This document shows positions 6,666 through 28,791 of a stretch of 64,000 nucleotides of DNA, piece by piece. A model generated the notes under the pieces. The model was not told where the DNA came from and made no database searches. It was given only the letters and a program-made list of their open reading frames with translations. The position numbers and the translations under genes were made by a program. Every line of letters starts with the position of its first letter. Positions within the stretch are counted from its first letter, which is position 1. The stretch is from Acidisphaera sp. S103 (GTDB taxonomy: Bacteria > Pseudomonadota > Alphaproteobacteria > Acetobacterales > Acetobacteraceae): positions 327,111 through 391,110 of the forward strand of contig NZ_LMUJ01000048.1 of NCBI RefSeq assembly GCF_009765975.1, written 5' to 3'.

Positions 6666-6689
6666 CGTGATATCCAGGACTATATAACG
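6666..6689. promoter_or_regulatory. Mo-box-like palindrome, site 1 (SDR/ALDH divergent promoter)
   Basis: Halves CGTGATAT and ATATAACG with 8 bp between them (CCAGGACT). The right half is an exact match to the consensus half. It sits 41 bp before the ALDH start and 39 bp before the divergent SDR. Confidence 0.6.
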
Positions 6690-6730
6690 CAGGAAGCCTC
6701 GGGCACGAGGCCGGTCAGGAGGATTACAGC

Positions 6731-8161
6731 ATGGAACACGAACGGCAGCACTACGTGAACGGGGCCTGGGTCGACCCGCTGCAACCTACGCTGCTGGACG
6801 TCGTCGATCCGTCTACCGAGGAAGCCTTCACGCAGATCGCCGTCGGCGGTCCCAAGGACGTCGATCGCGCCGTCGCTGCCGCCAAGGCCGCATTCCCGTC
6901 GTTCTCCCGCACCTCACGCAACGACCGGCTGGATCTGCTGAAAGCCATCCTCTCCGAATACAACAAGCGCAAGCAGGACATCGGCGAGGTCCTGTCCCGC
7001 GAAATGGGCGCCCCGGTCGCCTTCGCCGTGCAGCGGCAGGCCGGCACCGGCACCGCCCACCTGACGCGCATGATCCAGGTCCTCGAAACCTACAAGTTCG
7101 AAGACGTCGAAGGCTCCACCCTGATCGCTCGCGAACCAATTGGCGTCGTCGGCCTGATCACCCCCTGGAACTGGCCGATCAACCAGATCGTCTGCAAGGT
7201 CGCACCGGGCATCGCCGCCGGCTGCACCATGGTGCTGAAACCGTCGGAAGTCGCACCGCTGAACGCCATCATCTGGTCCGAGATCATGCACGCCGCCGGC
7301 GTTCCAGCCGGTGTCTACAACATGGTCCAGGGCGAAGGTGGCGTCGTTGGTGAAGCCATGTCGTCTCATCCTGACATCGACATGATGTCGTTCACCGGCT
7401 CGACCCGCGCCGGCATCCTGGTGGCACAGGCGGCGGCGAAGACGGTGAAGCGGGTCTCCCAGGAACTGGGCGGCAAGTCCGCCAACATCCTGCTGCCGGA
7501 CGTCGATTTCCAGACCGCCGTCACCAAGGGCGTGCTGGGAATGATGGGCAACAGCGGCCAGTCCTGCAACGCGCCCACGCGCATGTTCGTCCCCGCTGAC
7601 CGGCATGAGGAGGTCAAGGCCATCGCCAAGGCCGCCGCCGAACGCGTCGTCGTCGGCAATGTCACTGACGACAAGACGACGATCGGCCCGGTCGTCAGCG
7701 AAGTGCAGTTCAACAAAATCCAACGCCTGATCCAGGCCGGCATCGACGAAGGCGCGGAAGTGGTGGCCGGCGGTGTCGGCCGTCCGGAAAACCTCAACCG
7801 AGGCTATTTCGTTCGCCCAACGGTATTCGCCGGCGTGCGCAACGACATGACCATCGCGCGCGAGGAAATCTTCGGGCCGGTTCTGTCGATCCTGCCCTAC
7901 AAGGACGAAGCCGACGCCATCCGCCTGGCCAACGAAACCGTCTACGGCCTGGCGGCTTACGTGCAATCCGGCGACATCAAGAACGCACGCCGCGTCGCGG
8001 CCGAGATGCGCGCCGGCAATGTGTTCGTGAACTATCCGTCCAGCGACACAGCCGCACCGTTCGGCGGCTACAAACAGTCCGGCAACGGCCGCGAATACGG
8101 CAAGTGGGCACTGGACGACTTCACCGAGATCAAGGCGGTGATCGGCTACGAAGCCGCGTAA
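6731..8161 (+). CDS. Aldehyde dehydrogenase family protein (ALDH 1)
   Basis: NAD(P)-dependent oxidation of an aldehyde to its acid, cytoplasmic; 476 residues, slightly short for the family but complete. TPWNWP near 145, FTGSTRAG at 221, general base Glu245 in QELGGKS, and catalytic Cys279 in NSGQSCNAPTR are all present, with EEIFGPVLS and FGGYKQSGNGRE toward the end. AGGAGGATTACAGC before the ATG is a strong ribosome site. It is a single-gene unit bounded by a Mo-box-like site upstream and a perfect 11-bp hairpin terminator after the stop. Cysteine context resembles broad-specificity betaine/semialdehyde types; the substrate is open. Confidence 0.95.
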   Translation: MEHERQHYVNGAWVDPLQPTLLDVVDPSTEEAFTQIAVGGPKDVDRAVAAAKAAFPSFSRTSRNDRLDLLKAILSEYNKRKQDIGEVLSREMGAPVAFAVQRQAGTGTAHLTRMIQVLETYKFEDVEGSTLIAREPIGVVGLITPWNWPINQIVCKVAPGIAAGCTMVLKPSEVAPLNAIIWSEIMHAAGVPAGVYNMVQGEGGVVGEAMSSHPDIDMMSFTGSTRAGILVAQAAAKTVKRVSQELGGKSANILLPDVDFQTAVTKGVLGMMGNSGQSCNAPTRMFVPADRHEEVKAIAKAAAERVVVGNVTDDKTTIGPVVSEVQFNKIQRLIQAGIDEGAEVVAGGVGRPENLNRGYFVRPTVFAGVRNDMTIAREEIFGPVLSILPYKDEADAIRLANETVYGLAAYVQSGDIKNARRVAAEMRAGNVFVNYPSSDTAAPFGGYKQSGNGREYGKWALDDFTEIKAVIGYEAA

Positions 8162-8169
8162 CGAACAGA

Positions 8170-8197
8170 TTCCGGGCAGGTCGCGGCCTGCCCGGAA
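8170..8197. terminator. Bidirectional hairpin terminator between ALDH 1 and msrB
   Basis: TTCCGGGCAGG (8170-8180), loop TCGCGG, CCTGCCCGGAA (8187-8197): an 11-bp perfect stem in the 41-bp gap between two converging stop codons. No long T run follows on either strand. Confidence 0.75.
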
Positions 8198-8202
8198 CCA
8201 GC

Positions 8203-8604
8203 CTAATCCGGCGTGAAATCCATCGCGACACCGTTGATGCAGTAGCGTTGGTACGTCGGCGGCGGGCCGTCGTCGAACACATGCCCCAGATGACTGCCGC
8301 AGGTCGCGCAATGCACCTCGGTGCGGATCATTCCAAGGCTTCGATCGACCGTCGTCTCCACCGCCCCCTCGATCGGATCGTTGAAGCTCGGCCATCCGGT
8401 TCCGCTCTCAAACTTCAGCTTCGTCTCGAACAGCGGCGTCTCGCAGCCCGCACAAGTGAAGCGGCCGGCCCGCTTTTCCGCCAGCAAGGCGCAACTGCCC
8501 GGCGCCTCGGTGCCATGGGAACGCATCACGTAGTATTGCTCCGGCGTCAAAATACGACGCCATTCCGCATCGCTATGGGTGACAGGGTAGGTCTTCACGG
8601 ACAT
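8203..8604 (-). CDS. msrB: Peptide-methionine (R)-S-oxide reductase MsrB
   Basis: Reduces methionine-R-sulfoxide, the partner activity of MsrA. The 133-residue protein has the two zinc-binding pairs CAGC and CATC, GTGWPSF, and the catalytic cysteine in RYCINGVA near residue 123. There is no signal peptide, so it should act in the cytosol. HIS/Asn residues around GHVFDDGPPPT are typical. Its promoter region faces modA (185-bp gap). Finding both msr genes within 3.5 kb but on opposite strands and with different predicted location suggests separate regulation. Confidence 0.96.
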   Translation of the reverse strand: MSVKTYPVTHSDAEWRRILTPEQYYVMRSHGTEAPGSCALLAEKRAGRFTCAGCETPLFETKLKFESGTGWPSFNDPIEGAVETTVDRSLGMIRTEVHCATCGSHLGHVFDDGPPPTYQRYCINGVAMDFTPD

Positions 8605-8757
8605 GTTTGCTTCCTTCTCGCTATCCGAAAGTTGGTGGGGGCAGCGTGGGACACAAGACGCGCCCTGTTATCCTAACCGGCACAGGCATCGACTGTCCGC
8701 CCCGTCATGCCCCCGGGTCAATCCCGTCGGCGCGCCGAACATTCGCGCTGCCGATGC

Positions 8758-8781
8758 ATCTATACCGAAACGGATGAAACC
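8758..8781. promoter_or_regulatory. Weak Mo-box-like sequence before modA
   Basis: ATCTATAC, 8-bp spacer CGAAACGG, ATGAAACC, ending 8 bp before the modA ATG. It keeps the 8-8-8 geometry but the right half fits poorly, so it is only a candidate. Confidence 0.25.
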
Positions 8782-8789
8782 ATTATAGA

Positions 8790-9587
8790 ATGGTTCGGAT
8801 CGAGCAAACGAGGCATACACACGTGATTCTCTCCCGGCGAGGCCTGCTCAGTTCTCTGCTCGCCCTGCCTGCGGCGCAGTCCGAAGCGGCGCCCGCCCCT
8901 GTCCAAATCTACGCCGCCATGACATTTCGTCCCGCGCTGGACCGCGTCCTGGCGGCCTATCGCGACACCGGCGGCGCCGCGGTCGCGGTCTACGCGCCAA
9001 CGCCAGTCCTGATCCGCCAACTCACCGGCGGCGCGCCGGCCGATATCCTGCTGACCGCCGATCCAACCTGGATGGATGAGGCCGTACGCCAGAAACTGGT
9101 CCGCCCGAAATCCCGGACCAATCTCATGACCAACGACCTTGTGCTCGCCGGCCCGGCCGGCAGCCCGATCGTCGGCATCATCTCCCGGACCTTCTCGCTG
9201 CAAGCCCGGCTTGGTGGCGGCCGGCTCGCCATGTGTGACCCCGACCACGACCCAGCCGGGCGATACGCCAAACAAAGCCTCCAGGCGCTCGGTTTTTGGC
9301 CGATGGTTGCGTCCCATATCGCAATCGCGGAAAGCGCGCCAGCGGCCGTCGTCCTTGTGGATAAGGGAGAAGCCGCCGCCGCGGCCTGCTTCAAAACCGA
9401 TGTGCACGGCGATCCGCATGTTGTCGCCATCGGCACATTCCCCCCGGACTCGCACGCACCGATCGTCTATCCCATCGCCCTGGCCAGCGAACTTCGCAAC
9501 CCCCAGGCGCCCTCGACCCTGGCGTTCCTGCGCTCACCCGCGGCAACGCGCATTTTTACCGATTTCGGCTACACCCCCGCGACCTGA
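8790..9587 (+). CDS. modA: Molybdate ABC transporter substrate-binding protein
   Basis: Periplasmic oxyanion receptor of 265 residues. The N-terminus has twin arginine followed by a hydrophobic run (SRRGLLSSLLALPA), compatible with Tat or Sec export. Family hallmarks are PADILLTADPTWMDEA and DPDHDPAGRYAKQSLQALGFW, the latter a ModA signature, plus VYPIAL near the C-terminus. A GTG at 8823 could be an alternative start directly before the signal peptide. Unusually, modB and modC are 12 kb away at 21588. Its 3' end overlaps the converging DUF2478 gene by 19 bp. It presumably feeds ModBC. Confidence 0.88.
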   Translation: MVRIEQTRHTHVILSRRGLLSSLLALPAAQSEAAPAPVQIYAAMTFRPALDRVLAAYRDTGGAAVAVYAPTPVLIRQLTGGAPADILLTADPTWMDEAVRQKLVRPKSRTNLMTNDLVLAGPAGSPIVGIISRTFSLQARLGGGRLAMCDPDHDPAGRYAKQSLQALGFWPMVASHIAIAESAPAAVVLVDKGEAAAAACFKTDVHGDPHVVAIGTFPPDSHAPIVYPIALASELRNPQAPSTLAFLRSPAATRIFTDFGYTPAT

Positions 9588-10153
9588 CCGGCGATCCCCT
9601 GCCGGCGCGCACTGACGGCCCGCTCGACCCAGTCCGCGACCGCCGTCGAAGCCAACGGCAGCACGGTCGCCGCCCCCCCAAGGAAGCGTTCGAGACCCTC
9701 CAGCCGAGACACCCGCACCGCAATCAGCACCACCGCGTCGGAGCAGATCGCGTCCGCGATCTCAGCCCGCATGCCGTCCCCCACACTCTCGGCATAACCG
9801 AAGCGGTTGACGACGACCACGTCCTGCCTTTGTTCGATGACCCGCCGCAACAGGCACGCGGCATGGGCCAGCGCATCCGGATCGACAATGCAGTCCTTCG
9901 CGCCCGGTCCCCGCGGCTGGTCCAGCCGGAGTGTCTCGCCGGTGCCGACATCGTCCAGCCATATGCTCAGCCGGCCATTGGAAAGCCGTTCACCGGTGCG
10001 CTGCAGCAGACCCCCGACGGTCATGCCTCGATTGCGGACGCGCCGGACCGCCTCGCCCAGGATGGCATCGACCGCGACGTCCGCATCATACGGCAGCACG
10101 CCGACTTTCGCGGCGATGTCCGATAGGGCCGGCATGGGTTGGTTCGTTGCCAT
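9569..10153 (-). CDS. DUF2478 family protein, molybdenum-associated
   Basis: About 194 residues. The body matches what I remember of DUF2478, a family often found beside mod genes and sometimes mislabelled as an ABC ATPase; here it indeed overlaps the end of modA by 19 bp. The N-terminus GVLPYDADVAVDAILGEAV lacks a classical P-loop. Blocks such as RLDQPRGPGAKDCIVDPDALA and VVVNRFGYAESVGDGMRAEI (near 120-145) look like the family core with an Asn-Lys/Arg-x-G type element. The start at 10153 (ATG with AAGGTGG upstream) was preferred over the longer open frame to 10375, whose extra residues look non-coding. The biochemical role is not known to me. Confidence 0.75.
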   Translation of the reverse strand: MATNQPMPALSDIAAKVGVLPYDADVAVDAILGEAVRRVRNRGMTVGGLLQRTGERLSNGRLSIWLDDVGTGETLRLDQPRGPGAKDCIVDPDALAHAACLLRRVIEQRQDVVVVNRFGYAESVGDGMRAEIADAICSDAVVLIAVRVSRLEGLERFLGGAATVLPLASTAVADWVERAVSARRQGIAGQVAGV

Positions 10154-10267
10154 GGACCACCTTCGCACATGACCCGGGACATTCAAAACGCGCACCGGCA
10201 ACCGATCGAGGCTCACGCCGTTCAGACGCCATGAACCCGCCGGCATTGCCAGATGCGCCACCAAATG

Positions 10268-10291
10268 CGATATACCCGAACGGGAATAGCG
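10268..10291. promoter_or_regulatory. Mo-box-like palindrome, site 2 (DUF2478/ALDH 2 divergent promoter)
   Basis: Halves CGATATAC and GAATAGCG separated by CCGAACGG; the inner CCCG-AA-CGGG extends the symmetry and the flanking G/C at 10267/10292 also pair. 76 bp before ALDH 2 and 114 bp before DUF2478. Confidence 0.6.
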
Positions 10292-10367
10292 CTTACCGCC
10301 TGGCGGTATCCGGTCGCCTGCGCGACCCGGCAATCCCGTCACCATGTCCGCAAGGGAACATCCTGAT

Positions 10368-11795
10368 ATGTCCAACTACCCACAACTGAAGCTTTACATC
10401 GGCGGCGAATGGAAGACCGCGGATGGCGCGCCGGTCCTGAATCCCAACGACGAAAGCGTCCTCGGCATCGTGCCCCACGCCACCCGTTCGGACCTCGACA
10501 ACGCCCTCGCGGCAGCCGAGGAAGGCTTCAAGCTGTGGTCCCGCACCGCCCCGGCGAAACGCGCCGAGATCATCCTGAAGGCCACCTCGATCATGCGCGG
10601 CCGCATCGAGGAGATGGCGGTGGCGATGACCCTGGAACAGGGCAAGCCCATTGCCCAGTCCCGCCTGGAAATCCTGCGCGGCTGTGAGATCATCGAGTGG
10701 GACGCTCAGGAAGGTCGCCGCGTCTACGGCCGCATCATCCCCAGCGAGCCCGGCATGCGCCATTCCGTGCTGCGCCAGCCCATCGGCGTAGTCGCCGCCT
10801 TCTCCCCCTGGAACTTCCCGATGAGTTCCCCCGCCCGCAAGGTCGGCGGCGCGCTGTCGGCCGGCTGCTCCATCATCCTGAAGGCCTCTGAGGAAACCCC
10901 CGCCGGCGCCGTGCAACTGGTGCAGGCCTTCCACGACGCCGGCCTGCCCGCTGGCGTGCTGAACCTGGTGTTCGGCAAACCGTCCGACATCTCCGAATAC
11001 CTGATCCCGCAACCGTCCGTCCGGTTGGTCACCTTCACCGGGTCGGTGCCGGTCGGCAAGCATCTGTCGTCCCTGGCGGGCGCGCACATGAAGCCGGCGA
11101 TCATGGAACTGGGCGGCCATTCCCCGGTCTTCGTCTGTGACGATATCGATCCGGTTTCCACTGCCGCGAAATCCGCCATCGGCAAGTCGCGCAACGCCGG
11201 CCAGGTCTGTGTTTCCCCTACCCGCTTCTTCGTTCCGGATGCGATTTACGACCAGTTTACCGAAGCCTTCGCCGAGAAGGCCGCCGCGATGAAGGTCGGC
11301 GACGGCATGGACCCGGCGAACCAGATGGGACCGCTGGCGAACGAACGCCGCATCGAGGCGATGGAAATGTTCGTCGCCGACGCCAAGTCGAAGGGCGCCA
11401 AGATTGCGGCCGGCGGCACCCGTATCGGCAACCGAGGCTACCACTTCCCACTAACCGTCGTCGCCGACATCCCCGACGACGCGCGCGCAATGCGGGAAGA
11501 GCCGTTCGGACCGCTCGCCCTGATCAGCCGTGTCCGCAGCCTCGACGAAGCAATCGAGAAAGCCAACTCCGTCCCGTACGGCCTCGCCGCCTACGCCTTC
11601 ACCAACTCCGCCCGCAACGCCGAACAACTGGCTGAGAGCGTCGAGGTCGGTAACCTGTCAATCAACCACTTCGTCGCCTCCGCCGCCGAGACCCCATTCG
11701 GCGGCGTCAAAGACAGCGGCTTCGGCCGCGAGGGTGGTGTCGAAGGATTGCAGTACTACACCGTCACCAAAAACGTTTCGCACCTGACCGCGTAA
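10368..11795 (+). CDS. NAD(P)-dependent aldehyde dehydrogenase, succinate-semialdehyde type (ALDH 2)
   Basis: About 475 residues. FSPWNFP at 145-151, FTGSVPVGK at 223, Glu247 in MELGGHSP, Cys281 in NAGQVCVSPTRFFV and the C-terminal PFGGVKDSGFGREGG are intact. LEQGKP near 90 and the NAGQVC cysteine context are those of succinate-semialdehyde dehydrogenases and related gamma-semialdehyde enzymes, so oxidation of a semialdehyde is the most likely role. The ATG at 10368 follows AAGGGA; an upstream ATG at 10344 has no ribosome site. A GC hairpin follows the stop at 11806-11832. Confidence 0.93.
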   Translation: MSNYPQLKLYIGGEWKTADGAPVLNPNDESVLGIVPHATRSDLDNALAAAEEGFKLWSRTAPAKRAEIILKATSIMRGRIEEMAVAMTLEQGKPIAQSRLEILRGCEIIEWDAQEGRRVYGRIIPSEPGMRHSVLRQPIGVVAAFSPWNFPMSSPARKVGGALSAGCSIILKASEETPAGAVQLVQAFHDAGLPAGVLNLVFGKPSDISEYLIPQPSVRLVTFTGSVPVGKHLSSLAGAHMKPAIMELGGHSPVFVCDDIDPVSTAAKSAIGKSRNAGQVCVSPTRFFVPDAIYDQFTEAFAEKAAAMKVGDGMDPANQMGPLANERRIEAMEMFVADAKSKGAKIAAGGTRIGNRGYHFPLTVVADIPDDARAMREEPFGPLALISRVRSLDEAIEKANSVPYGLAAYAFTNSARNAEQLAESVEVGNLSINHFVASAAETPFGGVKDSGFGREGGVEGLQYYTVTKNVSHLTA

Positions 11796-11805
11796 ACCAC
11801 GAAAT

Positions 11806-11832
11806 CCTCCCTTGGCCGCCGGCCGGGGGAGG
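11806..11832 (+). terminator. GC-rich hairpin after ALDH 2
   Basis: CCTCCC...GGGAGG with inner GGCC-GCC-GGCC (TT/GG as wobble pairs), 11 bp after the stop; no clear T run follows. Confidence 0.6.
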
Positions 11833-11947: not shown

Positions 11948-11957
11948 CCTCAACGCC

Positions 11958-16541: not shown

Positions 16542-18026
16542 CTAGTCAGTCTTGATCCAGACCGCCTTCACGTTCAGGTATTCTTCCAGATGCTGCACGC
16601 CGGACTCACGGCCATACCCGCTCATCTTATATCCACCGAACGGCACCGCCGGATCCATCGCCTGGTAGCAATTGATCCAAACCGACCCTGCCCGAATAGC
16701 CCGAGCAAGCTTGTGCGCCTTGCCGACATCCCGGGTCCACACGCCGCTGCCCAACCCAAACTGAGTCTTGTTACCGCGCTCGATGACTTCCTCGACGTCG
16801 GTGAACGGAATGGCAGAGATCACCGGCCCAAAGATTTCTTCCTGCGCGATCCGCATGTCGTCGCGCACGTCGGCGAATACCGTCGGCGGCACGAAGAAGC
16901 CCTTCGCCATATCGCCGTCGGTCAGACGCTCACCACCCGACAGCGGACGCGCCCCTTCCTGGCGGCCGATGTTCAGGTAGCTGCTGACACGCGTCATCTG
17001 CTCCTGCGACACCAACGGACCAACCTGGGTCTCCGGATCGGCGCCGTTCCCAACGCGCAATGTCTTGCTGAAGTCGGCAACGCGGCTGACGAATTCGTCG
17101 TAAATTTTCTTTTCGACGAACAGACGCGTCCCGGCACTGCAGATCTGGCCGGAGTTCGCGAACACCGCCATGCCCGACCCCGGCACTGCCTGCGACAGGT
17201 CGGCGTCAGCGAACACGATGTCCGGCGACTTGCCGCCCAGTTCCAGCGACACCCGCTTCAGGTTGCCAGCCGAGGCCCGAATGATCGACTGCCCCGTCAC
17301 ATGCGACCCGGTGAACGCCACCTTGTCCACGTCCGGATGCGACGCCAGTGCCGCACCGGCGGTTTCACCAAAGCCCGGCACCACGTTCACCACGCCCGGC
17401 GGCACACCCGCTTCCAGGCACAACTCACCCAACCGCAACGGAGTCAGCGGCGCTTCCTCGGCCGGTTTCAGCACCACGGTGCAGCCGGTCGCCAACGCCG
17501 GCCCGATCTTCCAGATCGCGGCGGTCAACGGACCATTCCACGGGATGATCGCACCGACCACGCCAACGGGCTCCTTCAGCGTGAACGACACGATCTCACC
17601 CGGCAACGAGTTATTGATCGTTTCGCCATGCAGCGCCGTCGCCATACCGGCATAGAACCGCAGCATCCCCACCGCGCGAGCCTTATTCCCCCGCGTGCGG
17701 GAAATCGGCGCGCCCATATCCAGCGTATCCAGCGCGGCGAATTCCTCGATATTCTCTTCGACCAGATCAGCGAGTTTCAGCAACAGCGCTTGCCGCTGCG
17801 CCGGCTTGAACTTGCTCCACGGGCCATTGAAGGCCTCACGCGCCGCGGCGACCGCGCGATCGATATCCTCGGCGTCGCCTTCGGCGACATGCGCCAGGAT
17901 TTCCCCGGTCGCCGGATTGCGGGTTTCGAACGTTTTGCCGGATGCGGCCTCGAGCCACTTGCCGCCGATCAGCATGCGTTTCGTCTTGCCATCCAGGAAC
18001 GGATGGACCTGCGTCATGACGTTCAT
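16542..18026 (-). CDS. Aldehyde dehydrogenase family protein (ALDH 3)
   Basis: A 494-residue ALDH. ARMs of the family are all visible: IPWNGP near 160, FTGSHVTGQSI near 240, Glu in LELGGKSPDIVF, catalytic Cys in NSGQICSAGTRLFVE near 300, EEIFGPVISAIPF and PFGGYKMSGYGRESG. The SGQICSAGTR context is that of betaine-aldehyde/phenylacetaldehyde-type enzymes. The start at 18026 has AGGAG 9 nt upstream; the longer open frame has no ribosome site and would read through the Mo-box-like site. The promoter region holds site 3 of that motif 63 bp upstream. Confidence 0.94.
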   Translation of the reverse strand: MNVMTQVHPFLDGKTKRMLIGGKWLEAASGKTFETRNPATGEILAHVAEGDAEDIDRAVAAAREAFNGPWSKFKPAQRQALLLKLADLVEENIEEFAALDTLDMGAPISRTRGNKARAVGMLRFYAGMATALHGETINNSLPGEIVSFTLKEPVGVVGAIIPWNGPLTAAIWKIGPALATGCTVVLKPAEEAPLTPLRLGELCLEAGVPPGVVNVVPGFGETAGAALASHPDVDKVAFTGSHVTGQSIIRASAGNLKRVSLELGGKSPDIVFADADLSQAVPGSGMAVFANSGQICSAGTRLFVEKKIYDEFVSRVADFSKTLRVGNGADPETQVGPLVSQEQMTRVSSYLNIGRQEGARPLSGGERLTDGDMAKGFFVPPTVFADVRDDMRIAQEEIFGPVISAIPFTDVEEVIERGNKTQFGLGSGVWTRDVGKAHKLARAIRAGSVWINCYQAMDPAVPFGGYKMSGYGRESGVQHLEEYLNVKAVWIKTD

Positions 18027-18089: not shown

Positions 18090-18113
18090 CGCTATACCCT
18101 GACGAACATAACG
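18090..18113. promoter_or_regulatory. Mo-box-like palindrome, site 3 (upstream of ALDH 3)
   Basis: Halves CGCTATAC and ACATAACG with 8 bp between (CCTGACGA). ACATAACG is, from memory, the same right half as in the E. coli modA operator. It is 63 bp before the ALDH 3 start; trmO ends 28 bp away on the other side. Confidence 0.65.
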
Positions 18114-18641: not shown

Positions 18642-20138
18642 TCACAAAGCCGCGGTAACGGCCTTCACTTCGGTGTAGTTGTGGAACACTTCCGCGCCCA
18701 TCTCCCGGCCCCAGCCGGATTGCTTGTAGCCGCCGAACGGCAGCGACGCGTCGAACACGTTGTGGCAGTTGATCCACACCGTGCCGGAACGGATGCGGCT
18801 GGCCAGCTTGTGCGCCGTCCCGCCATTCGCCGTCCACACGCTGGCCGCCAGGCCATAGATCGTGTCGTTGGCGCGCTTGGCGATCGCATCCAGGTCGTTG
18901 TCGTCGAACGGCGTGGCGCAGACCACCGGCCCGAAGATTTCCTCGCGGATCACCTTCATGTCCGGCGTGGTCTTCTCCAGCACCGTCGGTGCGACGAAAT
19001 ACCCCAGGTTACCCACCCGGTTGCCGCCCACCGCGACATGCGCACCCGACCGGCGCCCATCCTCGATATAGCTGGTCACGCGGGAGAACTGCTCATCCGA
19101 CACCAGCGGCCCCATTTCCGTCGACGGATCGAGACCCGGCCCGACCTTGATCTTGCTGGCAATATCGGCAACGCCCGAGACGACCTTGTCGTACACCGAT
19201 TTGTGCGCGTACAGCCGAGACCCGGCGCAGCAGCACTGCCCGTGATTGAAGAAGATCGCATTCGCCGCCCCGGAAATCGCCAGGTCCAGATCGGCATCCG
19301 GCAGGATGATCGCCGGCGACTTGCCGCCGAGTTCCAGCGACACTTTCTTCAGGTTGCCCGCCGCCGCCTGCACGATCAGCTTGCCCACCTCGGTCGACCC
19401 GGTGAACGCCACCTTATCAACGTCCGGATGCGCCGCGATCGCCGCGCCGGCGGTTTCGCCGAACCCGGTCAGGATGTTGACCACGCCCGGCGGGAACCCG
19501 GCTTCCTGGAACAGTTCGCCCAACCGCAGCGCCGACATCGGCGTCTGTTCCGCCGCCTTCAGCACCACTGTGCAGCCCGCCGCCAACGCCGGCGCCAACT
19601 TCCAGCACGCCATCAACAGCGGGAAATTCCACGGGATGATCTGCCCGACCACGCCCACCGGCTCCCGCACCGTGTAGGACAGGTATTCGCCCGGCAGCGA
19701 CAAGGGCAGGGTGGACCCGGTGATCTTGGTCGCCCAGCCGGCCATATAGCGGAACATATCCACCGCCAGCGGCAGGTCGGCGACCTTGGCGACCGCATAC
19801 GGCTTGCCGTTGTCGATCGATTCCAGTTCGGCGAGTTCCTCCAGATCGCGCTCGATCAGATCCGCCAGCTTCCACAGCATCTTGCCGCGCGCCGACGGGC
19901 CGACCTTTGCCCACACACCATCGTCGAACGCCCGCCGCGCCGCTGCGACCGCAAGGTCGACATCCGCCTTGTCGCCTTCCGGCACATTGGCGATCACCGT
20001 TCCGGTCGCGGGATTATACACCGGGAACGTCTTTCCCGACACCGCCTGTACCAGCTTCCCATCGATCAGCATGCCCGACCGGCGGCCGAGAAACCCGCCA
20101 GCGTGCCGCAACCTTGAATCAAGCGCGATTGTATCCAT
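18642..20138 (-). CDS. Aldehyde dehydrogenase family protein (ALDH 4)
   Basis: A 498-residue ALDH with the features of the class 1/2 NAD-dependent enzymes: IPWNFPLLMACWK near 170, FTGSTEVGKLI near 245, LELGGKSPAIILPDAD with the general base, FFNHGQCCCAGSRLY near 300 with three adjacent cysteines (the middle one catalytic), and PFGGYKQSGWGREMG. The CCC triplet is the hallmark of broad-range acetaldehyde/retinal-type ALDHs. Its stop is 45 bp from trmO. The divergent gene is DUF2325-modBC, and Mo-box-like site 4 lies in the shared region, 120 bp before this start. Confidence 0.95.
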   Translation of the reverse strand: MDTIALDSRLRHAGGFLGRRSGMLIDGKLVQAVSGKTFPVYNPATGTVIANVPEGDKADVDLAVAAARRAFDDGVWAKVGPSARGKMLWKLADLIERDLEELAELESIDNGKPYAVAKVADLPLAVDMFRYMAGWATKITGSTLPLSLPGEYLSYTVREPVGVVGQIIPWNFPLLMACWKLAPALAAGCTVVLKAAEQTPMSALRLGELFQEAGFPPGVVNILTGFGETAGAAIAAHPDVDKVAFTGSTEVGKLIVQAAAGNLKKVSLELGGKSPAIILPDADLDLAISGAANAIFFNHGQCCCAGSRLYAHKSVYDKVVSGVADIASKIKVGPGLDPSTEMGPLVSDEQFSRVTSYIEDGRRSGAHVAVGGNRVGNLGYFVAPTVLEKTTPDMKVIREEIFGPVVCATPFDDNDLDAIAKRANDTIYGLAASVWTANGGTAHKLASRIRSGTVWINCHNVFDASLPFGGYKQSGWGREMGAEVFHNYTEVKAVTAAL

Positions 20139-20258
20139 GATTGTCTCCTCCTTGGTTTGCCGGCCGCGACACCAGTTTCCACTTGGCGGGTACGGCTCGA
20201 TGGGCCACTATCGCTGTAGCCAGTCAAACACTACGACGGGATATCGACGGGCGCGAGT

Positions 20259-20282
20259 CGTTATATCCAAATGGGATCAACG
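20259..20282. promoter_or_regulatory. Mo-box-like palindrome, site 4 (ALDH 4 / DUF2325-modBC)
   Basis: Left half CGTTATAT is a perfect half-site; spacer CCAAATGG; right half GATCAACG is degenerate. It ends 18 bp before the preferred DUF2325 start and so is placed to control the DUF2325-modB-modC unit. Confidence 0.55.
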
Positions 20283-21551: not shown

Positions 21552-21587
21552 TTTTGCCCGCCGTATCTTCCCCGCTATACCGTTCCC

Positions 21588-22280
21588 ATGACGATGTTAT
21601 CGCCCGAGGAATGGGAAGCCGTCTGGCTGACCCTGGCCGTTGCCGCGCGAGCGGTGGCGTTCGGCCTACCCTTGGCCGCCCTGACTGCCTGGGTCCTGAC
21701 CCGCTATCGCTTCCCCGGCCGAGGCATCCTGAACGCCCTGGTCCATCTGCCCATGGTGCTGCCCCCCGTCGTCACCGGCTGGCTGCTGCTGCTGATCTTC
21801 GGCATCCGCGGCCCCATCGGCGCGCTGCTGCTGGACTGGTTCGGCATCCGCCTGGTGTTCACCACTGCCGGCGCCAGCCTCGCCTGCGCCGTCATGACCT
21901 TCCCCATCATGGTCCGCTCCATCCGCCTCGCCCTGGACTCCATCGACAGTGGCCTGGAGCAGGCCGCCCGCACCCTGGGCGCCGGCTGGTGGGACCGCCT
22001 GGTCAACATCACCCTGCCGCTGGCCTCCCCCGGCATCCTTGTGGGCGGCATCGTCGGCTACGCCACCTGCCTGGGTGAGTTCGGCGCCGTCATCACGTTC
22101 GCCGCCAACATCCCCGGCCAGACCCAAACCCTGCCGCTGGCGATCTACGCCGCGCTGCAATCCCCAGGCGGCGAGACCAAGGCGGCCGAACTCTCGATGG
22201 TCTCCATCACCCTCGCCCTCATCGGCCTCCTACTCTCCGAATGGTTCGGCAAAAAACTGAACACCATGCTCGGACGATGA
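21588..22280 (+). CDS. modB: Molybdate ABC transporter permease ModB
   Basis: A 230-residue inner-membrane permease with five or six hydrophobic segments. The binding-protein-dependent transport signature EQAARTLGAGWWDRLVNITLP (EAA loop) near 125 and the ModB-type LPLVLPPVVTGWLLL-like segment (LPMVLPPVVTGWLLLLIFG) near 50 are diagnostic, as is GEFGAVITFAANIPGQTQTLP. It forms the channel for molybdate with ModC as ATPase and ModA as receptor. It overlaps modC by 4 bp (ATGA), so the two are translationally coupled. Confidence 0.96.
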   Translation: MTMLSPEEWEAVWLTLAVAARAVAFGLPLAALTAWVLTRYRFPGRGILNALVHLPMVLPPVVTGWLLLLIFGIRGPIGALLLDWFGIRLVFTTAGASLACAVMTFPIMVRSIRLALDSIDSGLEQAARTLGAGWWDRLVNITLPLASPGILVGGIVGYATCLGEFGAVITFAANIPGQTQTLPLAIYAALQSPGGETKAAELSMVSITLALIGLLLSEWFGKKLNTMLGR

Positions 22281-23356
22281 GTTTTTCCATTACGCTGACC
22301 CATCGCTTTCCGTCCGTCCGGATGGATCTCGCGTTCGAGGTCCCATCACCGGGCGTAACGGTGCTGTTCGGCCCCTCCGGCGCCGGCAAGTCGACCATCA
22401 TCAACGCCACCGCCGGCCTGCTGCGTCCCGACATCTGCCGCATCGAGGTCGACGGCACCGTCCTCGCCGACACCGCCTCCGACACCTGGATCCCACCGGA
22501 ACGCCGCCGCGTCGGCCTGGTGTTCCAGGACTCGCGCCTGTTCCCGCACATGTCGGTCGCCACCAACCTGCGCTTCGGCATGCGCCGCGTCGCCCCCGGC
22601 TCCATCCACTTCGATGAGGTCGTCGATCTCCTGGGCATCGCCCCCCTGCTGACTCGGCGCCCCCACACCCTATCCGGAGGCGAACGCCAACGCGTCGCCA
22701 TCGGCCGAGCCCTGCTCGCCCAACCGCACTTGCTGCTGATGGATGAACCCCTGGCCAGCCTCGATGCAGCCCGCAAAGCGGAAATCCTGCCCTACCTGAC
22801 CCGCCTGAAAACCGCGCTGAGCCTCCCCATCCTCTACGTCACTCACGCCCTGGACGAAGCGGTGCAACTCGCCGATTCCATGGTGCTGGTGGAAGCAGGC
22901 CAGGTGGTAGCGTTCGGCGCCGTGTCCGAAGTCGCCGCTAGGGCCGACCTGCCACTGGCCCGCCGAGACGACGCCGGCGCGCTATTGCTATGCCAGGTGA
23001 GCGAAAACGACACCCCACGCGCCCTGACCCGCCTCGAAGGCGCCGGCGCAACCTTCTGGGTCCCCTTGCTGGACCTGCCGGTCGGCACCAACTGCCGCAT
23101 GCGCATCCCCGCCCGTGAGGTCATCCTGGCCAGCCAGCCCCCCGAGGCGATCAGCCTCCACAACATCATCCCAGGCACAGTCCGCCAAATCGCCAACGAT
23201 CCCACAAGGCGTTCGGTGATCGTCGAAATCGCCCTGCCAGACGGCGGCCTGCTGTCACGCGTCACTCCCGACGCCGTGGCCCATCTAGGATTATCGACCG
23301 GCACCCCGGTCCTGGCCCTGATCAAATCCACCTCGATCGAAGTGCTGGGCCAATAG
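22277..23356 (+). CDS. modC: Molybdate ABC transporter ATP-binding protein ModC
   Basis: A 359-residue ABC ATPase. Walker A GPSGAGKST near 34, Q-loop LVFQDSRLFPH, signature LSGGERQR near 135, Walker B LLLMDEPLASLD and the H-loop VTHALDEA are intact. The C-terminal ~120 residues form the mobidenum-pterin (TOBE/Mop-like) domain typical of ModC: LHNIIPGTVRQI and LALIKSTSIEVLG. That domain binds oxyanion and gates transport in response to molybdate. ATGA overlap with modB sets the start at 22277. Confidence 0.96.
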   Translation: MSFSITLTHRFPSVRMDLAFEVPSPGVTVLFGPSGAGKSTIINATAGLLRPDICRIEVDGTVLADTASDTWIPPERRRVGLVFQDSRLFPHMSVATNLRFGMRRVAPGSIHFDEVVDLLGIAPLLTRRPHTLSGGERQRVAIGRALLAQPHLLLMDEPLASLDAARKAEILPYLTRLKTALSLPILYVTHALDEAVQLADSMVLVEAGQVVAFGAVSEVAARADLPLARRDDAGALLLCQVSENDTPRALTRLEGAGATFWVPLLDLPVGTNCRMRIPAREVILASQPPEAISLHNIIPGTVRQIANDPTRRSVIVEIALPDGGLLSRVTPDAVAHLGLSTGTPVLALIKSTSIEVLGQ

Positions 23357-23605: not shown

Positions 23606-23660
23606 CGGCCCACGAACCACACCCAACCCCCGCCACCACCGCCCAGACCTTGCCCCAAAA

Positions 23661-23684
23661 CGCTATATCCTGTTGGATATGGCG
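23661..23684. promoter_or_regulatory. Mo-box-like palindrome, site 5 (molybdenum hydroxylase promoter)
   Basis: CGCTATAT, spacer CCTGTTGG, ATATGGCG: the most symmetrical copy, with 9 of 10 positions pairing in each extended half (CGCTATATCC / GGATATGGCG). It ends 29 bp before the hydroxylase ATG. Confidence 0.7.
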
Positions 23685-23713
23685 AAGCCTAGAGCCATGA
23701 GAGCCCCATCCGA

Positions 23714-26065
23714 ATGAATGCGCCGTTCGATCCCACGCTGCTGACCGCTGAGAAATTCGCTGTCGGACAACCGGTTTCCCGCAAGGAAGACCCCACCCTG
23801 CTGCGCGGTCAAGGCCGCTACACCGACGATCTGAACCGGCCCAACCAGCTCTACGCCGTCATGGTGCGCAGCCGGATGGCGCACGGCATCATCAACAGCA
23901 TCGACGTCCAGACCGCCCGCGAAATGCCCGGCGTCCACGCGGTCATCCTGGCCGAGGACCTGGACGCCGCCGGGATCAAGAACATGCCGGCCGCGGCGGG
24001 CAAGCACCGCGACGGCACCGCCACTCCACGCCCTGCCCAACGCGCACTGGCATCCGGAAAAGTCCGCTACGTCGGTGAACCAATCGCCATGGTCGTGGCG
24101 GACACCAACAAACTGGCAAAAGACGCAGCCGAGGCGGTCTTCGCCGACATCGATCCGCTGCCCGCCGTCACCACCGCCGGTGACGCCGCCGCCCCAGGCG
24201 CACCCCAGATCCACGACGATGCGCCAGGCAACGTCTGCCTCGATTTCCATTTCGGCGACGAGGAGAAAGTAACCGCCGCCTTCGCCGAAGCCGCGCACGT
24301 CACAAGCCTGTCAATACGCAACAATCGCATCGTCGTCTGCCCGATGGAGCCCCGTTCGGCGATCGGCGAATACGATCCGGAAAAGGATCGTCTGATCCTC
24401 CGCCTGGGTTGCCAGGGCGCGTTCGGGCAACGAGCGCTGCTCAGCAGCGTCATGGGTATGCCAGTCGAAAAAATCCATGTCCTGACTGGAAACGTCGGCG
24501 GATCATTCGGCATGAAAGCCTCCGCCTACCCGGAATCTATCTGCCTGCTGCATGCCGCCCGAGTCCTCGGCCAGCCGGTCAAATGGACAGATGAACGCTC
24601 CGAAAGCTTCATGTCCGACAGCCACGGCCGCGACCACGAGATGATCGCCGAACTGGCTCTCGCCGCCGACGGCAAGTTCCTCGCCCTGCGCGTCACCGGC
24701 CACGGCAACCTGGGCGCCTGGCTGAGCAACGCCACCACCATCCCGCCGACGCAAAACACCGCGAAGAACATCATCGGCGTCTACAACACGCCGCTGATCC
24801 AGGTCACGACCAAGTGCATGTTCACCAACACAACGCCCGTAGGGGCCTACCGAGGCGCCGGCCGCCCCGAGGGCAACTACTACATGGAACGCCTGGTCGA
24901 AACCGCCGCCCGCGAAATGGGCATCGACCGCGTCGAACTGCGCCGCCGCAATCATATCCAACCTGAACAGATGCCATATCAGGCACCGAACGGAATGCTC
25001 TACGACTGTGGAGAATTCCCCGCAGTGATGGAAAGAGCCCTCGCCGCCGGCGACTGGGACGGTTTCGCCACCCGCCAAGCCGAATCTAAATCCCGCGGCA
25101 AACTGCGCGGCCGAGGCATGGGCCATTTTCTGGAGGTCACCGCCGGTGACGGCAACGAAATGGGCGGCATCCGTTTCGAGGACGACGGCAACGTCACCAT
25201 CATCACCGGCACCCTCGACTACGGCCAGGGCCACGCCACGCCCTTCGCCCAGGTCCTCTCCGCCCAGCTCGGTATACCATTCGAAAACATCAAGCTGCTG
25301 CAAGGCGATTCCGACGAATTGGTCGCCGGTGGCGGCACTGGCGGCTCCCGCTCGATGATGCAAAGCGGCGCCGCCATCATCGCCGCCAGCGATATCGTCA
25401 TCGAACGCGGCAAACGCGCCGCCGCGCACTTCCTGGAAGCCTCTGTTGCCGACATCGAATTTTCCCGCGGCCGGTTCAGCGTCGCGGGAACCGATCTGGG
25501 CATCGGCGTCGTCGATCTCGCACAACGGTTGCGCCTGGAAGCCCAGATCCCGGAAGACCTGCCGCAATCGCTGGATGTCAAACACATCAACAAAGGCGTG
25601 CCCTCCGCATACCCCAATGGCTGCCACATCGCCGAGGTCGAAATCGATCCCGAAACCGGCACCGTCGAAGTCGTCAGCTACGCCACCGTCAACGATTTCG
25701 GCACATTGGTGAACCCGATGCTAGTCGCCGGCCAGGCCCATGGCGGCATCGCCCAGGGCATCGGCCAAGCCCTGATGGAAAGCGTCAGATACGACGAGGA
25801 CGGTCAGCTCATCACCGGCTCATACATGGATTACGCGCTGCCACGCGCAGGCGACTTCCCCACCATGGGCTTCATCAGCCACCCCGTACCCGCCCGCACC
25901 AATCCACTCGGTGCAAAAGGCTGCGGTGAAGCCGGTTGCGCCGGCTCCCTGCCGGCGGTGATGAACGCCGTCGTAGATGCGCTCTCGGAATTTGGCATCA
26001 CCCACATCGACATGCCCGCCACACCACACCGCATTTGGCAGGCAATCCAGGCCGCGCAAACATGA
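23714..26065 (+). CDS. Xanthine dehydrogenase/aldehyde oxidase family molybdopterin-binding subunit
   Basis: Large molybdenum-cofactor subunit (783 residues) of the CoxL/aldehyde-oxidase family, which hydroxylates aldehydes, N-heterocycles or CO. The N-terminal a/b hammerhead domain starts at about 20 (SRKEDPTLLRGQGRYTDD), followed by FEPR-like PMEPRSAIGEYD, GGSFGMK near 265, and AYRGAGRPEG near 380. The latter replaces the AYRCSFR loop of true CO dehydrogenase, so aldehyde or heterocycle oxidation is favoured. GAKGCGEAGCAGSLPAVMNAV with the catalytic Glu is near the C-terminus. No iron-sulfur or FAD subunit gene is adjacent, which is unusual for this family. It is ATGA-coupled to a small unknown gene and lies just after modBC. 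Confidence 0.93.
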   Translation: MNAPFDPTLLTAEKFAVGQPVSRKEDPTLLRGQGRYTDDLNRPNQLYAVMVRSRMAHGIINSIDVQTAREMPGVHAVILAEDLDAAGIKNMPAAAGKHRDGTATPRPAQRALASGKVRYVGEPIAMVVADTNKLAKDAAEAVFADIDPLPAVTTAGDAAAPGAPQIHDDAPGNVCLDFHFGDEEKVTAAFAEAAHVTSLSIRNNRIVVCPMEPRSAIGEYDPEKDRLILRLGCQGAFGQRALLSSVMGMPVEKIHVLTGNVGGSFGMKASAYPESICLLHAARVLGQPVKWTDERSESFMSDSHGRDHEMIAELALAADGKFLALRVTGHGNLGAWLSNATTIPPTQNTAKNIIGVYNTPLIQVTTKCMFTNTTPVGAYRGAGRPEGNYYMERLVETAAREMGIDRVELRRRNHIQPEQMPYQAPNGMLYDCGEFPAVMERALAAGDWDGFATRQAESKSRGKLRGRGMGHFLEVTAGDGNEMGGIRFEDDGNVTIITGTLDYGQGHATPFAQVLSAQLGIPFENIKLLQGDSDELVAGGGTGGSRSMMQSGAAIIAASDIVIERGKRAAAHFLEASVADIEFSRGRFSVAGTDLGIGVVDLAQRLRLEAQIPEDLPQSLDVKHINKGVPSAYPNGCHIAEVEIDPETGTVEVVSYATVNDFGTLVNPMLVAGQAHGGIAQGIGQALMESVRYDEDGQLITGSYMDYALPRAGDFPTMGFISHPVPARTNPLGAKGCGEAGCAGSLPAVMNAVVDALSEFGITHIDMPATPHRIWQAIQAAQT

Positions 26066-26409: not shown

Positions 26410-26437
26410 CCGCCCCAACCGTCACGGCCGTACCCTA

Positions 26438-26473
26438 CCGTCATGGCCGGGCATGTCCCGGCCATCCACGCAC
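26438..26473. repeat. Intergenic hairpin repeat, copy 6 (CCGGG-stem type)
   Basis: CGTCATGGCCGGG..TCCCGGCCATCCACGCA, near-identical to copy 5. Confidence 0.8.
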
Positions 26474-26502
26474 GAACCGTCGCCACAAGACCGGCCCTCT
26501 CA

Positions 26503-26537
26503 TCGTCATACCGGCGAATGCCGGTATCCACGCCTTA
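26503..26537. repeat. Intergenic hairpin repeat, copy 7 (ACCGGC-stem type)
   Basis: CGTCATACCGGC..GCCGGTATCCACGCC: same frame as the others, but the stem is ATACCGGC/GCCGGTAT, changed on both arms. Confidence 0.8.
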
Positions 26538-26632
26538 CAGTACCGACGGCGAACCCTCGCCCCCCCTGATTCGACATTTCCCCAGTTTGAAACTCTGATG
26601 GGCACAACAGACGCCCGGAAGAGGAATCCAGG

Positions 26633-27943
26633 ATGACCGATGTCGAAACCGCCGTGATCCGCAAGGTGGCATGGAGGCTGATCCCGTTTCTGTGCATCGC
26701 CTACGTGACCAACGCCCTCGACCGGTACAACGTCTCCATCGCCGCCCTGACCATGAACAAGGACCTCGGCCTCAGCGCCTCGGTCTACGGCCTCGCCGCC
26801 GGCTCCTATTTCTGGAGCTACGTTCTGTGTCAGGTCCCCGCCAACCTGATGCTGCGAAAACTCGGCGCCCGAGCGTGGCTTGCCATCATCATGGGCCTGT
26901 GGGGACTGGTATCCACCAGCACCGCCCTGGTTACAGGTGAAACAAGCTTCGTCTGCGCCCGCTTTCTGCTCGGTATCGCCGAGGCCGGCTACTTCCCCGG
27001 CGTCACCTATTTCATGATGTGCTGGTTTCCCAGCCGGCATCGCGGCCGCATGATGGGCTTCTTCTTCGCCGCCAGCGCCATCTCCAGCGTCATCGGTGCA
27101 CCGCTCTCGGCGAACCTGCTACGCCTCGACGGACTACTCGGTCTCGCCGGCTGGCAATGGATTTTCATCGCCGAAGGCCTCCCGGCCATCATCCTCGCGT
27201 TCGTTGGCATCGGCATCCTGCGCAATCGCCCCGCCGACGCACCATGGCTGACCACAACAGAAAGCGAATGGCTGCAAAACCGCCTGGACGCGGAAGCTGC
27301 CAACAAGCCGACACATGGCCGAGCCCTGCTGCCCTCGATCTTGAACCCACAGATCATCATCCTGACCATCGCTTTCGCGTTCACCCTCTACGGCAACTAT
27401 TCCATCGCCTTCTTCCTGCCGCTGATTATCAAGGGCCTGGGTCTCTCGAACCTCGAGGTAGGTTACGTAAGCGCGTTGCCCAGCCTCTGCACAGCCGTCG
27501 GGATGATCCTGATCTCCCGCAGTTCCGACCGCTCCGGAGAACGCTTCTGGCACGTGATAGTCCCCGTAACGATCGGCGGACTGGGCATGCTGGCCGCCGC
27601 ATTTTCGCTCGGCAACGTCTACCTCGCCATGGCCGCGTTCTGCATCGCCTTGTGCGGCCTGTCTTCCACGCTGCCCGTCTTCTGGAACCTGCCGACGGCC
27701 TACTTCGGTTCGGCCACCGCCGCCGCGGGCATCGGCGCGATCAACACCATCGGCAACATGTCAGGCTACCTGGCCCCGCAGTTCACCGGCCTGCTGCACG
27801 ACCGGTCCGGAGGCTACGTCGTGCCATTGCTCGTCGCCGCCGCGCTCGCACTATCCGCGCCAATCCTGATCACCCTCTCCGGCATAAGGCGCTACCTGCA
27901 CCAACCCGATCGATCAACCACACCGGCCGCCAAAACGGTCTAA
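26633..27943 (+). CDS. MFS transporter, anion:cation symporter (phthalate/tartrate permease-like)
   Basis: A 436-residue inner-membrane carrier with 12 hydrophobic segments. IPFLCIAYVTNALDRYNVSIAAL at the start, LGARAWLAIIMGLWG near 80 and GIAEAGYFPGVTYFMMCWFPSRHRGRMMG near 110 are signatures of the ACS family, which imports organic acids such as phthalate, tartrate or glucarate with protons. The start has AGAGGAATCCAGG upstream. It lies after two hairpin repeats and converges with the ModA-like gene (11 bp between stops). Substrate unknown. Confidence 0.92.
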   Translation: MTDVETAVIRKVAWRLIPFLCIAYVTNALDRYNVSIAALTMNKDLGLSASVYGLAAGSYFWSYVLCQVPANLMLRKLGARAWLAIIMGLWGLVSTSTALVTGETSFVCARFLLGIAEAGYFPGVTYFMMCWFPSRHRGRMMGFFFAASAISSVIGAPLSANLLRLDGLLGLAGWQWIFIAEGLPAIILAFVGIGILRNRPADAPWLTTTESEWLQNRLDAEAANKPTHGRALLPSILNPQIIILTIAFAFTLYGNYSIAFFLPLIIKGLGLSNLEVGYVSALPSLCTAVGMILISRSSDRSGERFWHVIVPVTIGGLGMLAAAFSLGNVYLAMAAFCIALCGLSSTLPVFWNLPTAYFGSATAAAGIGAINTIGNMSGYLAPQFTGLLHDRSGGYVVPLLVAAALALSAPILITLSGIRRYLHQPDRSTTPAAKTV

Positions 27944-27954
27944 CCAACCGTCCG

Positions 27955-28746
27955 TCAAGGCGAGGCAAGTCCAACCGGATCGAAACCGAACCGAGCCAAA
28001 ATTGCCTGCCCACGCTCCGACATGACGAACAACGCAAAACGTTCAGCGAGAGGATGATCCGATAGCACAACCATGCCATACGCCGGTCCGACCGATAATG
28101 CGGCCGGTACCGTAACGGACACCAGTCCCGGTACCTCCTTCATCACCGGCCCCGAACCGCTGCAGTAACCCAGCATAATGTCCGCCCGGTTTGCCAGAAA
28201 CACGCCCTGGACCGCCCCATGCCCGGGCACCAGCGACGGCGTATTAGGCCCGCCCACCAGCTTCAACGCCTTCGCTTCCAACACAGCCTTGGCGCCCGGA
28301 TGCACCGCCTCGGCACGAGCAAAAATCGCCCAGGCATAATCGCCACCCAGATCGGCCCCCGGTGTCGACGTCGCCAGTCGCACCGCCGGATCCAACATGC
28401 GGTCCAGCAAATTATCCGACGTCAATCGCGGCCGCCCCAGCGCGCACAACCGATTGCGCGTGAACATGATCACCGGCTGCCCCGCCCGCGCCAGCTTCCG
28501 AGGCTGCGCCATGTCAGCCGAAGCCAGGATATCCGCCGCCTCCCCATGCTCGATCCGCTCCCGCAACACGCCGGACGGCCCGAACACCGGCGCGGCGACG
28601 CTGTCCGGCGGGGCAGGGAAGTCCTTCAGCATTTCCGTGAACGCGCCGCTCAGGCTGCCCGCCGCATAAACCCGCAAACTGTCCGCCATCCCGGCGCTCG
28701 GAAACAGCATCAACAGCAACATGACAATTCGAATTCGACCCGCCAT
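27955..28746 (-). CDS. ModA-like extracellular substrate-binding protein
   Basis: A 263-residue periplasmic protein with a Sec signal peptide (IRIVMLLLMLFPSAGMA). YAAGSLSGAF near 27, FGPSGVLRERIEHGEAADILASAD near 55, and STPGADLGGDYAW near 120 are the standard molybdate/tungstate binding fold (SBP_bac_11). It differs from the ModA at 8790 in lacking the DPAGRYAKQ block. It has no permease or ATPase of its own; it may serve ModBC with a different oxyanion preference. The start at 28746 begins the signal peptide; the open frame upstream is antisense to ALDH 5. Mo-box-like site 6 lies 21 bp upstream. Confidence 0.85.
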   Translation of the reverse strand: MAGRIRIVMLLLMLFPSAGMADSLRVYAAGSLSGAFTEMLKDFPAPPDSVAAPVFGPSGVLRERIEHGEAADILASADMAQPRKLARAGQPVIMFTRNRLCALGRPRLTSDNLLDRMLDPAVRLATSTPGADLGGDYAWAIFARAEAVHPGAKAVLEAKALKLVGGPNTPSLVPGHGAVQGVFLANRADIMLGYCSGSGPVMKEVPGLVSVTVPAALSVGPAYGMVVLSDHPLAERFALFVMSERGQAILARFGFDPVGLASP

Positions 28747-28767
28747 CTGGACCCCCGGCCACCGCGT

Positions 28768-28791
28768 GGCTATATCCCCCACGACATAACC
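28768..28791. promoter_or_regulatory. Mo-box-like palindrome, site 6 (ModA-like/ALDH 5 divergent promoter)
   Basis: GGCTATAT, 8-bp spacer CCCCCACG, ACATAACC; each outermost C/G of the usual CG ends is changed to keep neither pair, otherwise a good match. 28 bp before ALDH 5. Confidence 0.5.

Follow-up and report, generated by a model that had tools for sequence, protein, structure and literature searches.

In Rhodobacter capsulatus, the regulators MopA and MopB repress mopA-modABC, morAB and anfA, via sites called Mo-boxes, when molybdenum (Mo) is present (PMC6925177). The operator of ModE has the consensus ATCGNTATATA-N6-TATATANCGAT (PMC545781), and a close form of the same consensus is given elsewhere (PMC2700814). 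Here, we describe a set of such sites in Acidisphaera sp. S103 (the source genome; 8.37 Mb in 116 contigs). The DNA analysed, hereafter the window, is a stretch of 64,000 nucleotides corresponding to bases 327111-391110 of contig C98. Six 24 base pair (bp) palindromes in the window, of the form CGNTATAT-N8-ATATANCG, are present near promoters and match the ModE consensus. These boxes, and copies elsewhere in the genome, are placed at genes for aldehyde dehydrogenases (ALDHs), molybdate uptake (mod), ModE and some Mo-enzymes. The genome also has modE and mop genes, and pairings of box and gene are conserved in relatives. Judged from the DNA, the ModE-type operators are genuine and the set of genes that they mark is unusual; the regulator, and the sign of regulation, we infer. 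The arrangement is similar to that in R. capsulatus, where, in the presence of molybdate, ModE-like regulators at Mo-boxes repress genes for uptake and, in addition, the pathway that gives access to a Mo-free isoenzyme. The difference is that the Mo-free enzyme of R. capsulatus is the Fe-nitrogenase, reached via anfA, whereas here boxes are found at several ALDH genes themselves.

An earlier note on the window had listed the palindromes, their gene context and box-to-start distances of 28-120 bp. All six sites are present as written (boxes 1, 2, 3, 4b, 5 and 6 in Table 1). The context is also as claimed: five PF00171 ALDHs, a DUF2478 protein, a DUF2325-modB-modC cluster, a Mo hydroxylase and a ModA-type protein. 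The distances fit, after re-assignment of gene starts where needed (ALDH3, to 18026, and DUF2325, to 20301). We scored the sites with two matrices. The first, the six-site matrix, was built from the six palindromes. It gives its own sites 22.2-30.0 bits (13.9-25.7 bits on leave-one-out scoring) and the next-best window position 11.4 bits. Since this test is partly circular, a second, independent matrix was derived solely from 12 boxes, all at modE promoters of other genomes. Note that matrix scans covered the window and chosen stretches; scans of the whole genome were pattern scans. The independent matrix has a random match rate of about 2 per Mb and, among 63,977 window positions, ranks the six sites 1-5 and 7 (scores in Table 1). 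Rank 6 (window 152-175, 13.0 bits) is isolated, with no obvious Mo-related gene nearby. The weakest of the six sites scores 11.9 bits, and this value, fixed after the scores had been seen, is our threshold. At or above it, the true matrix finds 7 positions, and none of 500 column-permuted palindromic matrices finds more than 3. When six sites were placed at random, none of 200,000 trials gave every one of the five ALDH starts an upstream site at a distance of 150 bp or less. The independent matrix, the permuted matrices and the conservation described below rule out chance palindromes. Two further weak boxes, 4a and one before modB, were absent from the earlier note and have counterparts in relatives. 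The former is the partner of box 4b in a tandem pair.

The likeness to Mo-boxes, proposed in the earlier note, is borne out. Briefly, the window sites share the geometry of the 24-bp core of the published consensus, and both core and spacing are those of the E. coli and Geobacter sulfurreducens ModE regulons (PMC545781, PMC2700814). The membership is different. The ModE targets named for G. sulfurreducens are CoA-transferase, tRNA, transport and nuclease genes, and 'aldehyde', as a whole word, does not occur in the main text of that paper (PMC2700814). A scan of the source genome with the published core, allowing one mismatch, finds 5 places. These are at ALDH1, the window Mo hydroxylase, ALDH7 (on contig C85), an aldo/keto reductase and a BTAD-domain protein. 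Allowing two mismatches adds 11, including one each before modE, ALDH3 and a molybdopterin oxidoreductase. The resulting 16 distinct places include sites upstream of 3 ALDHs, 2 Mo-enzymes and 1 modE; a periplasmic binding protein gene and the 5' end of a 982-amino acid (aa) multicopper-like open reading frame (ORF) are also among them. With as many as three mismatches allowed, the published core matches 113 times across the genome and the reversed pattern 70 times. A shorter form, at one mismatch, gives 8+6 matches in the source genome compared with 2+2 when reversed; several congeners show no such excess.

Further promoters of ALDH, Mo-enzyme, mod and modE genes also carry boxes, both in the source genome and in relatives. 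When 55 stretches of the source genome are pooled (197 kb, overlaps kept), eight rows at or above 11.9 bits fall at five distinct places, one of them intragenic. There are 26 PF20256 matches in the genome, of which five pairs resemble pieces of one gene, leaving about 21 Mo-hydroxylase genes. Six-site matches of at least 11 bits, some inside genes, are found in 3 of the 26 PF20256 rows and 4 of 11 PF00384 rows. Operon promoters may be missed in this count, because the loci extend only about 1.5 kb past each domain. Individual boxes were seen at L051 7134 and 14679 (C63), L050 7933 (C52) and L046 10681 (C82). The genes at these boxes are a divergent molybdopterin oxidoreductase/GMC oxidoreductase pair, the 982-aa multicopper-like ORF, the aldo/keto reductase and the BTAD-domain protein. 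A second Mo-hydroxylase large subunit (L045 9506-12149, on C37) has a 26-bit box; the gene after it, of 82 aa, matches ThiS below threshold. Finally, at L245 (C98:156694), a two-mismatch Mo-box is flanked on one side by a gene for a Peripla_BP_2 binding protein and on the other by a 474-aa ORF that matches no Pfam family; this is possibly a second uptake system.

The membership of ALDH genes is best seen with the independent matrix. The source genome has 13 ALDHs (PF00171 matches at E <= 1e-20). Six of the 13, the window's five and ALDH7, have an upstream box of at least 11.9 bits. Genes for a Mo-free isoenzyme are, in these cases, under a Mo-box. The box at ALDH7 scores 28.1 bits. For comparison, of the 55 ALDHs examined, none below the threshold scores more than 8.3 bits upstream. 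Downstream windows, used as a control, reach 11.9 bits in 2 of 55 cases (L191 and L201). The L201 site (position 1762, genome G012), a box of 24-30 bits (30.1 at the highest), lies beyond the end of an orthologue of ALDH6 and is unexplained; no ModE was found in G012 at E <= 1e-5. Among congeners, 8 of 33 ALDHs are boxed in four genomes that bear ModE, and 0 of 9 in four that do not (G003, G007, G012 and G028). The latter control is weak because, by identity, those genomes lack close orthologues of ALDH1-5. We conclude that a ModE regulon has likely captured NAD (nicotinamide adenine dinucleotide)-type ALDHs.

The earlier note would have counted the lack of a ModE or Mop-type regulator as a refutation; the genome has genes for both. 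Contig C92 encodes a ModE of 139 aa that matches TIGR00637 with 84.5 bits over 84 of 100 positions, and also matches the DNA-binding part of solved ModE structures (2ijl, 1b9m and 1o7l). We class this protein as helix-turn-helix (HTH)-only, rather than full-length, because its chain has no TOBE match. Downstream are a 68-aa Mop, at about 0.8 kb, and ALDH6, at about 1.1 kb. MopA and MopB carry their own molybdate-binding domains; in the source genome, by contrast, an HTH-only ModE is accompanied by a separate Mop. ModE matches (E <= 1e-5) occur in 24 of 35 genomes searched, the source genome included, and 23 are of the C92 type. With the six-site matrix, 15 of the 23 C92-type loci, from the source genome and relatives, have a box of at least 13 bits within 220 bp upstream of modE. 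The source genome's own modE promoter has a weak box of 13.5 bits. Apparent autoregulation thus ties the box to the regulator. In addition, the targets of either matrix are recovered with the other. HTH-only ModE proteins are described for Desulfovibrio species and D. psychrophila, again with a single DNA-binding domain and with Mo sensing unexplained (PMC545781). However, the operator predicted for two Desulfovibrio genomes is CGGTCACG-N14-CGTGACCG (PMC545781), whereas here the operator is of the E. coli type, with mop close by.

Conservation is clearest at DUF2325. In congeners where the 5' end of this gene is covered, 12 of 12 have a box before it, and in 7 of the 12 this is a pair spaced 46-47 bp apart. 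Of 11 named loci, 8 have an ALDH orthologue next to DUF2325 and a box separating the two genes (L120-L125, L128 and L129, where L120 is a Rhodopila metagenome-assembled genome record), most with Mop, ModE or modBC nearby. This adjacency was not seen in L126, L127 and L130. L127, from Azorhizobium, has a boxed DUF2325 and modE; its ALDH6 orthologue is not boxed. In Aureimonas AU20, the order is ALDH-box-modE-DUF2325, where the ALDH is no more than 45% identical to those of the source genome. Further boxes are found there before modA and at the start of DUF2325, the latter falling within the annotated gene start. Five plasmid records, of 28 that match, were examined, and all 5, including Caballeronia, have a box at the DUF2325 start. 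In a sample of the class, the DUF2325 profile is found in 5 of 384 genomes besides the source; in the loci scanned, only that of G389 has a box nearby. The long DUF2325 protein has invariant His/Cys residues. Its N-terminal part is predicted to be helical; long helices and a Rossmann-like end are also predicted, and no fold in the PDB matches with E <= 0.001. We consider it a candidate Mo-homeostasis protein. In several of the plasmid records (L258-L262), DUF2325 is near modE-like, mod, Glp or NifQ genes. One of these, L258 (Methylorubrum extorquens CM4 pCMU01), has a 14.9-bit box at 6116, between an NAD(P)-dependent alcohol dehydrogenase and glp. The neighbours are modABC, a TOBE-domain gene and a ModE-like gene with DUF2325.

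How might such a regulon work? We consider it probable that the palindromes, with their copies across the genome, form the regulon of the HTH-only ModE, which, when loaded with Mo, would repress uptake and Mo-free NAD-type ALDHs, and would release them when molybdate is scarce. The HTH-only ModE would be the protein that binds the boxes, and Mop would supply or gate the molybdate signal. The purpose may be metal sparing. Thus, when Mo limits the products of the Mo-hydroxylase genes, aldehydes would be oxidised by Mo-free ALDHs, much as a Mo-free nitrogenase replaces Mo-nitrogenase in Rhodobacter. Repression of the ALDHs is proposed because of the position of the boxes, and because R. capsulatus represses its uptake genes and the activator of its Mo-free nitrogenase when Mo is present. 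As to position, sites of the box 4a type directly follow the sequence TTGGC[AG]-N16/17-CA[CG]TAT in 7 of 11 stretches scanned. If this element is a promoter, the box spans about -6 to +18, which is a blocking position.

Several observations weigh against this interpretation. First, 6 of the 16 places closest to the consensus are not accounted for: two are at transposase-type genes (C47 and C109), two are inside predicted genes (C49 and C72), one is at a gene without a Pfam match (C18) and one lay outside the context check (C113). Second, when as many as three mismatches are allowed, the six-site pattern is no commoner across the genome than its reversed form (179+183 compared with 213+205). 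A spread of hits over unrelated places, which the earlier note would have counted against a regulon, has therefore occurred in part, in these two respects; the remainder of the 16 include ALDH, Mo-enzyme and modE promoters. Third, with the independent matrix, 7 of the 13 source-genome ALDHs have no box. The site at ALDH6, near modE, scores 15.3 bits with the six-site matrix and below 10 with the independent one, and we call this box uncertain because the matrices disagree. Orthologues of ALDH5 at L219-L221 (genomes G006, G008 and G029), and of ALDH6 in the same three genomes, have no box. Fourth, the C92 ModE is below the NCBI cut-off (84.5 compared with 98.5 bits), profile matches detect no TOBE or other molybdate-binding domain in its chain, and 8 of the 23 C92-type loci are not boxed. 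Fifth, 6 of the 7 stretches with the promoter-like element supplied its pattern, and only 1 of 5 others has it, so the argument for a repressor position is modest. Near the sites, no sigma-70-like promoter met the criteria of our scan. Finally, the strongest box is at the Mo hydroxylase and is as near to the gene start as that of ALDH5 (gaps of 29 and 28 bp). A simple Mo-sparing model does not explain this. Hence, the anatomy gives no reason for opposite regulation of the two. The switch between NAD-dependent ALDHs and a Mo-dependent oxidase, envisaged in the earlier note, is partly supported, by the Mo-box match, the recurrence of boxes and the ModE and Mop genes; opposite regulation of its two arms stays hypothetical. 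From its box, the window Mo hydroxylase may also be repressed, or activated from a leaderless start.

The last point leads to an alternative that we find unlikely, although it fares better than the others. The same ModE regulon could act with opposite or mixed sign, in which case Mo-ModE would be an activator of the Mo hydroxylase, and perhaps also of the ALDHs, in a joint Mo-dependent catabolism of aldehydes. E. coli ModE is both a repressor and an activator. Moreover, the centre of the Mo hydroxylase box is 41.5 bp before the ATG, which is the position of a class II activator, only if the transcript is leaderless. The second Mo hydroxylase (C37) and the molybdopterin oxidoreductase (C63) are also boxed. 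Conversely, the box at DUF2325-modBC directly follows the promoter-like element, and those 28-63 bp before the proposed starts of ALDH1, 2, 3 and 5 are likely over, or downstream of, promoters. In addition, the mod genes of R. capsulatus are Mo-repressed (PMC6925177).

It is much less probable that the boxes serve only molybdate uptake genes, with the ALDHs being chance divergent neighbours. Three window sites do lie between an ALDH and modA, DUF2325-modBC or DUF2478. However, the boxes at ALDH1, ALDH3 and ALDH7 have no mod-gene partner, and the neighbours of ALDH7 are transport and efflux-type genes. The box at ALDH5 is also kept despite a change of partner, which is modA in the source genome and DUF2478 at the boxed orthologues in L144 and L237. 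Furthermore, ALDHs that are only 38-45% identical are boxed in G006, G008 and Aureimonas. The context of ALDH7 and the partner change at ALDH5 lead us to reject such hitch-hiking as the sole cause. Least probable of all is that another regulator acts at the boxes, either a second HTH-only ModE (C81) or a periplasmic binding protein-like regulator (C49): both genes are in the genome, and a 16.8-bit six-site match is near the latter, but 0 of 7 C81-type modE loci are boxed upstream, compared with 15 of 23 of the C92 type, on which ground we reject the C81-type ModE.

Returning to repression by Mo-loaded ModE, a fuller account can be put forward tentatively; we regard its chances as close to evenly balanced, falling just short. 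A split sensor, comprising HTH-only ModE and free Mop, would use the Mo-box to control Mo-free ALDHs and uptake; under Mo starvation, NAD-ALDHs would thereby take over the oxidation of aldehydes from Mo-hydroxylases. Repeated recruitment to this control, of ALDHs from separate lineages, would have taken place in both Acetobacteraceae and Hyphomicrobiales. Mo homeostasis would gain a new component in the long DUF2325 protein, whose gene is boxed in Alpha- and Betaproteobacteria. To our knowledge, Mo-box control of a Mo-free isoenzyme is known only for alternative nitrogenases. A link between Mo supply and aldehyde oxidation is described for Pseudomonas putida KT2440, where disruption of the molybdate transporter markedly cut formation of furancarboxylic acids from furfural and 5-hydroxymethylfurfural (PMC7545826). 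A like effect for vanillin is reported in work cited there. The difference is that the main text of that paper describes no ModE control of Mo-free ALDHs, and the word 'ModE' is absent from it. We found no ModE-ALDH regulon in the literature searched, where searches were noisy ('ModE' matches 'mode') and key Mo-box and Mo-proteome papers were outside the scope. Novelty of the regulon is, for this reason, provisional.

Table 1. Features of the window. Scores in the fourth column are from the independent matrix.
Feature	Position	Strand	Score (bits)	Remarks
Mo-box 1	6666..6689	+	19.4	41 bp before ALDH1 start; divergent gene is a short-chain dehydrogenase/reductase
ALDH1	6731..8161	+		PF00171; boxed orthologues in L222, L223
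DUF2478 protein	9569..10153	-		Start 10153 proposed from a Shine-Dalgarno-like site
Mo-box 2	10268..10291	+	21.2	Between DUF2478 (-) and ALDH2 (+); 52 bp before ATG 10344
ALDH2	10344..11795	+		PF00171
ALDH3	16542..18026	-		PF00171; best NCBIfam match StyD, below cut-off
Mo-box 3	18090..18113	-	21.5	63 bp before ALDH3 start; between TrmO-domain gene and ALDH3
ALDH4	18642..20138	-		PF00171; best NCBIfam match StyD, below cut-off
Predicted promoter-like element TTGGCG-N17-CACTAT	20183..20211	+		Directly before box 4a
Mo-box 4a (weak)	20212..20235	+	11.2	47 bp upstream of 4b; 73 bp before ALDH4 start
Mo-box 4b	20259..20282	+	15.1	Between ALDH4 (-) and DUF2325-modBC (+)
DUF2325 protein, 416 aa	20301..21551	+		Start re-assigned; upstream of modBC
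Weak candidate Mo-box before modB	21559..21582	+	10.4	Counterpart in L106/L120 (15.7 in L120)
modB, permease	21588..22280	+		PF00528
modC, ATPase with TOBE domain	22241..23356	+		PF00005, PF03459
Mo-box 5	23661..23684	+	30.9	29 bp before Mo hydroxylase; window's best
CoxL-like Mo hydroxylase large subunit, MoCoBD	23714..26065	+		No recognisable partner-subunit genes adjoining
ModA-type binding protein	27955..28746	-		Start uncertain; 171-aa piece matches ModA models below cut-offs
Mo-box 6	28768..28791	+	11.9	Between modA-like (-) and ALDH5 (+); 28 bp before ALDH5
ALDH5	28820..30328	+		PF00171

If our interpretation is correct, metal sparing would reach into carbon metabolism, through conserved Mo-boxes at NAD-type ALDHs. 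From the boxes, one could also predict the ALDHs that are expressed where a habitat is poor in Mo. In addition, the regulon would offer a testable system for molybdate sensing by HTH-only ModE, a process called unclear in PMC545781.

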